32,415 bases of DNA, taken from contig NZAC01000024.1 of assembly GCA_002686085.1 (NCBI GenBank), forward strand, positions 42,912 to 75,326. Reading direction: 5' to 3'. The stretch is from Roseibacillus sp. GTDB lineage: Bacteria; Verrucomicrobiota; Verrucomicrobiia; Verrucomicrobiales; Akkermansiaceae. The translations under genes were made by a program, and so were the position numbers. Numbering within the stretch: position 1 is the first letter of the stretch; the number at the start of each line of letters is the position of its first letter. This document shows positions 18,478 through 22,160 of the stretch, one piece after another. The notes below the pieces were generated by a model that saw nothing but the letters and a program-made list of their open reading frames with translations, was not told the origin of the DNA and did not search any database.

Positions 18478-21351
18478 ATGGGAATTCCTGTTGCTCCTTC
18501 CAGCGGGCCCCCGGCGCCAGAGAGTTCCAGAGTGACGATCCCTCCCGGTTTCCCCGAACGCCACATAGGGCCGTCCGGGCAGCACTGTGTGGACATGCTT
18601 CGTGATCTGGGCTGTGATAGCTTGGAGACTCTGATTGAGGAGGCTGTGCCTCAGCCCATTCGCCTCGGTAAGGAGCTTGATCTTGAGGTTGCGCTTGGTG
18701 AAAGCGAAGCCCTCGAAGAGTTGAAAGAGGTCATGTCGCGTAATGAAGTGCGACGCTCGCTGATCGGACAAGGATACCATGGAACAAAAACTCCTTCGGT
18801 AATCCAACGCAACGTTCTCGAGAACCCCGGATGGTATACGGCCTATACTCCCTATCAGGCTGAAATTGCACAGGGCAGGTTGGAGGCATTGCTCAACTTT
18901 CAAAGTATGGTTGTGGATCTGACGGGGATGGATGTCGCAAATGCCTCTCTGCTTGATGAAGGAACCGCAGCGGCGGAAGCGATGGCGATGGCGATGGCTG
19001 TCAGCCCCAGATCAAAGAGCTTTTTTGCCGATTGTAATTGTCACCCTCAAACTCTCGATATTCTTCGAACCCGCTCTGAAGCTCTTGGAGTTGAGCTTGT
19101 GATTGGAAAGTGGCAGGAATTTCCCGCAGGTGAAGGGGTCTTTGCAGGGGCACTCGTCCAGTATCCCGATACGTTGGGATCGATCTCTGATTACGAGGGG
19201 TTCGCGGAGAGAGTGCATGCGGCAGGAGGAGTTTTGGTGGTGGCAGCCGATCCTCTGGCGCTGACGATCCTCAAGGAGCCTGGCGCCTTTGGCGCCGACT
19301 TATGCGTCGGATCGACGCAACGTTTTGGAGTGCCGCTGGGGTTTGGTGGTCCTCACGCTGCTTACATAGCATGCAAGGATCGGCTGAAGAGAAAGTTGCC
19401 AGGAAGGTTAGTAGGGGTTTCGGTGGATCATGCAGGTAAGCCGGCTTACCGCCTTGCGCTTCAAACTCGCGAGCAGCACATCCGGCGTGATAAGGCGACG
19501 TCAAACATCTGCACTGCCCAGGTCCTGCTCGCCGTAATGGCTTCGATGTACGCGGTGTATCATGGGCCTGAAGGGTTGCGGAAAATAGCCTCCCGGATCT
19601 ACTCCTTGACCGGGCGGATGGCGCGTGCGCTAAAACAGGCAGGTTTCAACTTCTCTGGTAGTGGATTTTTTGACACCCTTACCGTCGAGCTTGGGGGGCA
19701 AGCTGGAGACTTCGTCGAGGCCGCTGCAAGTAAAGGTTACAATCTTCGTCTGGTAAGTGCCGGGCAGGTGGGAATCACTCTGGACGAAACGGTGACCCTG
19801 GGAGAGGTTGAAGATGTTCTCGGCTGTCTCGGACTAGCGATGGACAGTGGTGAAGAGCAAGGGGTGCCTGAGCATCTGGTACGAAGTTCTTCGTTTCTCG
19901 AAAACGAAGTCTTCAACATTTACCACAGTGAGACCGAGATGATGCGTTACCTGCGTCGACTCGAGGGGAAAGATCTGGCGCTGAACGAGTCCATGATTGC
20001 GCTTGGGTCCTGCACCATGAAGTTGAATGCGGCCTCGGAAATGATGCCAGTTACCTGGCCTGAAGTGGGATCTATTCATCCCTTCGCTCCGGAAGAGCAG
20101 ACCGGAGGTTACCGTCTGATGTTGAAGACTCTCGAGAAGTGGCTGGCTGAAATCACTCAGTTTGCCGCAGTTTCTCTTCAGCCAAATGCTGGGTCTCAGG
20201 GTGAATATGCAGGATTGCTGGCGATTCGACGGTATCATCAGGGGAGAAACGATCCTGAGCGTGACGTGTGCCTTATTCCTCTCTCGGCGCATGGGACAAA
20301 TCCAGCTTCTGCTGTGATGGCAGGCTTTCGGGTGGTGCCCATCGAGTGTGATGAGGAGGGGAACATCGATGTGGAGGACCTCCAGTCCAAGTGTGAGGAG
20401 CATAGTGAACACCTAGGGGCCTTGATGGTGACCTACCCTTCAACCCACGGTGTTTTCGAGGAAACGATACAGACGGTGTGCGAAATAATACACTCGCATG
20501 GGGGACAGGTCTATATGGATGGAGCGAACATGAATGCTCAGGTGGGGCTTTGCAGTCCTGGGGGCATCGGGGCTGACGTCTGTCACCTTAATCTGCACAA
20601 GACGTTCTGTATTCCTCATGGCGGTGGAGGTCCGGGTGTTGGTCCGATCGGGGTGGCAAGCCATCTGGTTGAGTATCTACCGGGGCACGCCGTGTTGGGC
20701 GAAGAAGAAGGGGTCGTGAGCGCGTCTCCCTGGGGTAGCGCTTCGATCAATGTAATCTCATGGATGTATATCCGGATGATGGGGGCCGCTGGATTGGTGG
20801 CTGCGACTAAAGTGGCCCTTCTCAATGCCAATTATATTGCGCATAGGCTAAAGAGTTACTTCCCAGTGCTCTACACGGGAGCGAAGGGCCGGGTGGCGCA
20901 CGAGTGTATTATCGACCTGCGCCCTCTGCAGAAAGAGAGTGGAATTACGGTGGAAGATGTTGCCAAGCGATTAATCGATTACGGGTTTCATGCACCAACG
21001 ATGAGCTGGCCGGTGGCTGGGACCCTCATGATTGAGCCGACAGAATCAGAATCCAAAGAAGAGTTGGACCGCTTTTGTGAAGCGATGATTTCAATTCACG
21101 GAGAGATCCAGAAAGTCATCAGGGGAGATTGGGATTCGGAGAATAACGCCCTGCGCCGGGCTCCTCACACTGCAGAGATGGTTTCGAGCGATGAATGGAA
21201 TCGTCCGTATTCCAGAGAGTTAGCTGCTTTCCCTGTTTCGCGGTTGAGAGATCATAAGTTTTGGCCTGCGGTAGGAAGAATTGATAACGTGCATGGAGAT
21301 CGCAACCTCGTTTGCACCTGTGAGGGAATGGAGGGGTATCTCGAGGATTGA
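18478..21351 (+). CDS. gcvP: Glycine dehydrogenase (decarboxylating), single-chain P protein
   Basis: PLP enzyme that decarboxylates glycine and loads the aminomethyl group on lipoyl-GcvH. At 957 residues it is the fused homodimeric form, not the split gcvPA/gcvPB form. The N-terminal half begins with FPERHIGPS and includes MSVD-type helices around [20 protein letters not shown]. The catalytic half contains the PLP-lysine motif [16 protein letters not shown] with Lys708. The [19 protein letters not shown] linker-start of the second half is intact. A six-base microrepeat (ATGGCG) gives an AMAMAMA run near residue 165-171. The start ATG follows the gcvH stop by 4 nt; the stop TGA overlaps the next gene's start as TGATG. 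Confidence 0.97.
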
Positions 21352-21875
21352 TGAGCGTGGGGGAGGATTTCAGCAGCGTGCCTTCACCAATTGACTGGGG
21401 GCGATGGAGGCCAGAGATGCGGGCAACTCTGATGTTTATCCGGGACGGACATGAAGTGCTTCTCATGCGAAAGTTAAGAGGCATCGGGGCGGGAAAAATC
21501 AACGCGCCGGGGGGTAAAATTGAACCGGGGGAGACGCCGCTCGAGGGGGCGATCCGGGAAACGCAGGAGGAACTTCTCGTTACCCCCCTAAAACCGCGAA
21601 AAATGGGAGAGCTTTTTTTTGCGATGAGTGACCTGCCTGATATTTTTGTTCATGTTTTCATGGCTGAGGCCTTTTCAGGTAAGGCCGGAGAAACAGAAGA
21701 GGCGATTCCTCGGTGGACTAAGATTTCTGACATTCCCTATGACATGATGTGGGAGGACGATGAGCACTGGTTGCCAAGAATGCTTGAGGGCGAAAGGTTC
21801 AGAGGGCATTTTTACTTTGAAAGTGAACGCATCTGCTGGATGAAATTGGATTGGGGTGTGGGATTCAACGTGTAG
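21351..21875 (+). CDS. Nudix hydrolase, MTH1/8-oxo-dGTPase-like
   Basis: 174-residue Nudix-family pyrophosphohydrolase. The Nudix box is at 55-77: G55, E61, R69-E70 and E73-E74 of the GX5EX7REUXEEXGU pattern are kept, while the usual final glycine is replaced by Leu76. The preceding GIGAGKINAPGG resembles the GFGxGxWNGFGG segment of MTH1 (NUDT1)-type 8-oxo-dGTP diphosphatases, and the C-terminal DDEHWLPRMLEGERFRGHF also fits that group. A nucleotide-pool cleaning role is therefore likely but substrate is not proven. The ATG overlaps the gcvP stop (TGATG), so it is translationally coupled to the glycine cleavage operon. A bidirectional terminator follows 40 nt after the stop. Confidence 0.85.
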   Translation: MSVGEDFSSVPSPIDWGRWRPEMRATLMFIRDGHEVLLMRKLRGIGAGKINAPGGKIEPGETPLEGAIRETQEELLVTPLKPRKMGELFFAMSDLPDIFVHVFMAEAFSGKAGETEEAIPRWTKISDIPYDMMWEDDEHWLPRMLEGERFRGHFYFESERICWMKLDWGVGFNV

Positions 21876-21915: not shown

Positions 21916-21947
21916 AAAAACCCGCTCGGGTGAACGAGCGGGCTTTT
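21916..21947. terminator. Bidirectional Rho-independent terminator
   Basis: The inverted repeat CCCGCTCG / CGAGCGGG with a 6-nt loop is flanked by an A-run on the left (21916-21920) and a T-run on the right (21944-21947). On the minus strand the stem extends to 13 bp with one G-U pair and ends in five U, a strong terminator for the 6S-like RNA. On the plus strand it can end the gcv-Nudix transcript. Confidence 0.85.
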
Positions 21948-22125
21948 GCGGTCATCCGCCATGCCGTCCTTGACTACGCAAGCCACGTTCCCGTAGCCCA
22001 ATAGGTTGGGGGCTTCCTCCGGAGAGACACCTTCCAGTAAAGGCGTGGTCTCACTCCGCAGGGGCTGCCCCCTTTGTCAAAGCATCGGTCCGGGCGCGAG
22101 CCAAGAATTGACGCACACAGTAGAC
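21916..22125 (-). ncRNA. ssrS: Structured small RNA, candidate 6S RNA
   Basis: About 210 nt on the minus strand, bounded by a promoter-like sequence and a strong terminator, with no plausible protein. It can form a long closing helix between 22088-22076 and 21974-21956 (CCGATGCTTTGAC with GTCAAGGACGGCATGGCGG, small bulges). An upper helix follows (GGGGGC 22072-22067 with GCCCCC 22013-22008; CGGAG 22058-22054 with CTCCG 22024-22020). A small hairpin CTACG/CGTAG sits on the 3' side of the central region. A rod with a large internal bubble plus a 3'-side hairpin is the 6S RNA layout. The stretch GGGGCAGCCCCUG is reminiscent of the E. coli 6S 5' strand. 6S RNA binds RNA polymerase holoenzyme by mimicking an open promoter. 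The family call is inference; the RNA gene itself is better supported. Confidence 0.55.
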
Positions 22126-22131
22126 TTCCGG

Positions 22132-22160
22132 AAACTACCCTAGGTGACGATTAATCGCAA
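22132..22160 (-). promoter_or_regulatory. Predicted promoter of the 6S-like RNA
   Basis: On the minus strand TTGCGA (22160-22155), a 17-nt spacer and TAGTTT (22137-22132) would start a transcript near 22125. A 10-bp perfect palindrome CGATTAATCG (22148-22157) overlaps the -35 and spacer and could be a regulator site. The -10 is identical to that proposed for rpsT. Confidence 0.5.

Follow-up and report, generated by a model that had tools for sequence, protein, structure and literature searches.

A divergent member of the 6S RNA family in a Roseibacillus-type genome of the Akkermansiaceae and its predicted release switch

6S RNA regulates transcription globally and has been recorded in almost every bacterial group; the synteny of its gene differs between taxa. 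The 2014 work of Wehner is reportedly a survey of 6S RNA across bacteria. Our search of the literature for 6S RNA combined with Verrucomicrobia, Akkermansia or Verrucomicrobiota returned no paper on the subject, as judged by title and abstract. In the described 6S RNAs the polymerase starts copying a product RNA (pRNA) inside the central bubble; the pRNA unwinds helix P2, and in Escherichia coli the bubble then folds on its 3' side into a 9-bp hairpin (PMC8876501). The pRNAs verified by experiment in E. coli, A. aeolicus and R. sphaeroides carry GG at positions 4/5 (PMC8414754). In Proteobacteria, 6S RNA is often neighbored by ygfA/fau (PMC9130861). The Ms1 RNA of Actinobacteria has a 6S-like rod as well (PMC9130861), and is set apart by description, since it binds core polymerase and belongs to another lineage.

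The locus described here lies in a 32,415-nt stretch of DNA (the window) from Roseibacillus sp. The PheS protein encoded in the window is 98% identical to that of an Akkermansiaceae MAG and 91-96% identical to those of several Roseibacillus MAGs; the source lineage is a Roseibacillus-type member of the Akkermansiaceae, phylum Verrucomicrobiota. An earlier note, made from the letters of the sequence, had proposed a self-contained minus-strand unit at 21916-22160, composed of a -35/-10 pair, a long rod with a bubble and a 3'-side hairpin, and a terminator, as a candidate 6S RNA. These boundaries proved exact to the base: the interval 22160-21916 (minus strand) runs from the first T of the -35 hexamer TTGCGA to the final T of the terminator. 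The features of the locus are collected in Table 1.

Table 1. Coordinates of the 6S RNA locus and its neighbors in the window.
Feature	Position	Strand	Basis
-35 element TTGCGA	22155..22160	-	position; TTGC conserved in 15/16 loci
-10 element TAGTTT (family consensus TAnnnT)	22132..22137	-	position and conservation
6S RNA, full-length RF00013 match	21949..22129	-	46.4 bits, single copy
Closing (terminal) stem, 5' strand	22110..22125	-	helix 1
Closing (terminal) stem, 3' strand	21954..21968	-	helix 1
Helix P2 (downstream helix), 5' strand, pRNA template	22086..22095	-	pairing in 30 sequences
Helix P2, 3' strand	21982..21993	-	pairing in 30 sequences
Central bubble, 5' side, holding predicted pRNA start	22073..22085	-	motif ACCGAU 22089-22084
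Central bubble, 3' side	21994..22006	-	family alignment, E. coli comparison
Apical (internal) stem with small internal loops and loop	22007..22072	-	helices 3 to 7
Alternative 3'-bubble hairpin GGGCUACG-GGAA-CGUGGCUU	21980..21999	-	predicted when pRNA opens P2
Intrinsic terminator AAAAGCCCGCTCGTTCACCCGAGCGGGTTTTT	21916..21947	-	generic scan and genus-wide conservation
Nudix gene	21348-21875	+	PF00293 match
C39-peptidase-like gene, 459 aa	22250-23629	-	no Pfam match

The unit matched the Rfam 6S RNA model RF00013 from end to end. A permissive regional scan placed the match at model positions 1-187, with 46.4 bits and E 5.3e-8; the gathering score of RF00013 is 46.4 bits, and the match thus lies exactly on the cut-off. 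It was the sole match in the 3.95-Mb genome (genome-wide E 5.5e-8). An Rfam scan of the whole window with default filters gave zero matches, which is a false negative. The earlier note had named a clear hit to another RNA family as a result that would speak against 6S RNA; none was found in Rfam. Hrs10, RsmY, the rnk leader and the Thr leader were matched far below their own cut-offs, several of these weak matches leaning on the terminator hairpin.

The long rod proposed in the earlier note is stable beyond chance: its folding energy is -104.1 kcal/mol (z = -4.3), and not one of 200 dinucleotide shuffles was equally stable. Its pairing was examined in 30 family sequences on an RNAalifold structure of 35 pairs. 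In this set 95.5% of cells were paired, and both sides had changed in 20 of the 35 pairs. Both-side changes occupied 112 cells, compared to 31 in shuffled alignments, and none of 500 shuffles equaled any of five measures of covariation; when partner columns were slid by 1 to 3 positions, pairing fell to 36-47%. The closing stem was paired in 100% of cells, with both-side changes at 4 pairs, while in the two parts of P2 the bases could pair in 96.7% and 90% of cells. The alignment of homologous gaps suggested in the earlier note therefore yielded strong compensatory change.

Since the 30 sequences had been selected through RF00013 hits, searches with a genus-only model and a family model served as independent checks. 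The genus model, R1, was built from 13 genus sequences only. It hit 11 loci of the family beyond the genus (E 1e-12 to 1e-25) and four distant ones in other Verrucomicrobiota (E 0.0005 to 0.003), always at the same base positions. Because R1 was weak outside the family, a family model, R2, was made from the 30 sequences. R2 re-found 22 of 30 distant Verrucomicrobiota loci at their RF00013 coordinates with E < 0.01. Within the family it matched 90 of 97 genomes, nearly all at a single site, many of them missed by RF00013; two genomes gave two matches each, probably through assembly. The 6S RNAs of one Akkermansiaceae genus, g3 (G016, G100, G111 and others), scored 43-102 bits with R2, below the approximately 147-187 bits of genera nearer the window; the g3 RNAs are thus the most diverged and would need a model of their own.

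With RF00013, 6S RNA was detected in 69 of the 97 family genomes, in 26 of them over the cut-off and with a family maximum of 57.7 bits. Across the phylum it was detected in 151 of 288 genomes, with scores of up to 100.7 bits. The earlier note's description of an orphan RNA that would help to fill in 6S RNA for the lineage thus holds only in part: 6S RNA occurs across the phylum, but in most of the family it lies at or under the Rfam cut-off. The distant Verrucomicrobiota 6S RNAs (L053-L082) share the family model and the fold with the RNA of the window, and score higher with RF00013 (68 to 101 bits).

The promoter pair was confirmed by conservation. In 15 of 16 loci, that of the window among them, TTGC-N17-TAnnnT (N16 in two loci) ends 6-7 nt upstream of the closing stem, whereas a generic sigma-70 scan of the region detected no promoter. 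TTGCGA/TAGTTT is a weak match to what such a scan seeks, which accounts for the empty result, and conservation was used in its place. Judging from a distance of 7 nt, transcription would start near 22125 (minus strand). At the other end, the generic terminator scan did detect 21947-21916, approximately 0.7 such sites being expected by chance in the region, and the hairpin is conserved throughout the genus. T runs flank this hairpin on both strands, TTTTT on the minus strand and, behind the Nudix gene, TTTT on the plus strand; it is thus the probable end point of the convergent Nudix transcript as well as of the 6S RNA.

The Nudix and C39-like genes flank the 6S RNA gap in most genomes of the genus, and the gap sequence is present in 14 of 15 genus genomes, that of the window included. 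The resemblance of the 459-aa protein to C39/papain-like peptidases lies in the motifs YCGLNT and HASVIVGY, which were spotted by eye; its identity across the genus is 50-94%, and it is kept beside the 6S RNA gene. One genus genome (G014) carries two different 6S RNA loci (L005 and L021), each adjoined by a Nudix gene and, on the opposite side, by a C39-like gene; mixed strains in this MAG are a likelier cause than a true duplicate. In two further genomes the assembly breaks inside or beside the 6S RNA gene and leaves pieces on two contigs (end of C5 and start of C176 in G009; C77 and C13 in G034), probably an assembly effect and not duplication.

Taken at the level of sequence, a conserved promoter and terminator, a conserved, covarying rod of 6S architecture and the motif at which 6S pRNAs start were shown, and the unit is almost certainly a stand-alone 6S RNA (ssrS) gene. 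Like E. coli 6S RNA, it has a rod of closing stem, P2, central bubble and apical stem, is present as a single gene, and carries a CCGAU start that would give AUCGG, with GG at pRNA positions 4/5. It differs from E. coli ssrS in its neighbors, a Nudix hydrolase and a C39-like protein and not zapA and fau/ygfA, in having a terminator of its own, and in its low RF00013 score.

The CCGAU motif sits at the junction of P2 and the bubble (22088-22084, minus strand), and in 29 of the 30 family sequences it occupies identical alignment columns. The predicted pRNA start is U22084, from which the pRNA would read 5'-AUCGGUCCGGGCGC, with AUCGGUCCGGGC as its opening bases; it would thus start AUCGGUCCGG at 22084. 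In E. coli ssrS, CCGAU lies at U44 and the pRNA is AUCGGCUCAGGGGA. The start U is followed, in the 3' direction, by G in the window, compared to A45 in E. coli.

The bubble and the 3'-side hairpin foreseen in the earlier note are both real features of the predicted structure, but the hairpin is an alternative fold: in the modeled free RNA the strands at the side of the bubble pair as P2. The calculated probability of the hairpin at 21999-21980 rose from 0.02 in the free RNA to at least 0.98 when a pRNA of at least 6 nt was bound, at which point P2 had gone from the predicted ensemble. An identical calculation returned the 9-bp hairpin of E. coli. With a 9-nt pRNA bound, the hairpin was predicted to gain and P2 to lose pairs in 30 of 30 family sequences, although in several of them the model favored the hairpin already in the free RNA. 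The predicted Roseibacillus release hairpin differs from that of E. coli in its GGAA loop and its wobble pairs. Its strands showed no compensatory change beyond that of shuffles, and for this reason the release hairpin stays a prediction; a strand shared by two helices would limit such covariation. An E. coli-type release switch is accordingly a prediction of the folding model for the window RNA.

By analogy with the family, the RNA of approximately 175 nt would imitate an open promoter and be bound through its central bubble by the housekeeping sigma-70-type RNA polymerase holoenzyme, lowering transcription in slow growth or starvation. On the return of nucleotides, the polymerase would copy a short pRNA from U22084. 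In the model, this pRNA would open P2, the freed strand would form the 3'-bubble hairpin, and the polymerase would be released.

Other readings of the locus were weighed against this one. It is conceivable, but improbable, that the Akkermansiaceae RNAs form a 6S subclass of their own, set apart by release kinetics or sigma-factor preference, possibly working unlike the E. coli type and diverged enough to lie on the margin of the Rfam model. Much less probable is a 6S-like RNA of changed function, comparable to Ms1 of Actinobacteria. Structure alone cannot tell RNAs of the 6S and Ms1 kinds apart (PMC9130861); however, the 6S family model was matched over its full length, and two features that serve the release of pRNA, the start motif and the predicted switch from P2 to hairpin, persist in the relatives.

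Slightly less probable again is a structured small RNA of the Akkermansiaceae that has no relation to 6S RNA and the rod shape of which would yield a marginal 6S score. A score exactly on the cut-off would suit such an RNA, as would the search of E. coli ssrS with R2, which gave no direct match at E up to 1. Against it, the match spans the whole of model positions 1-187, the scores of relatives rise to 57.7 bits within the family and to 100.7 bits within the phylum, and the family model hits the same phylum sites to the base. Continuity with the established 6S RNAs, as traced by these comparisons, is through the relatives and not via a direct match between R2 and E. coli. That the unit is only the terminator of the C39-like gene with read-through, its structure arising by chance, would fit its same-strand position downstream of the gene but is hardly credible, given the z-score of the fold, a conserved promoter of its own and an RNA conserved far beyond the C39-like gene, and chance structure is refuted by the strong covariation.

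The RNA of the window is a new, divergent member of the known 6S family. Throughout the Akkermansiaceae, 6S RNA emerges as a conserved, usually single gene. For annotation, the lineage model catches 90 of 97 Akkermansiaceae genomes, compared to 26 of 97 by the standard Rfam cut-off. Knowledge of 6S RNA itself is left unchanged; the gain is a better annotation model and a concrete pRNA prediction.
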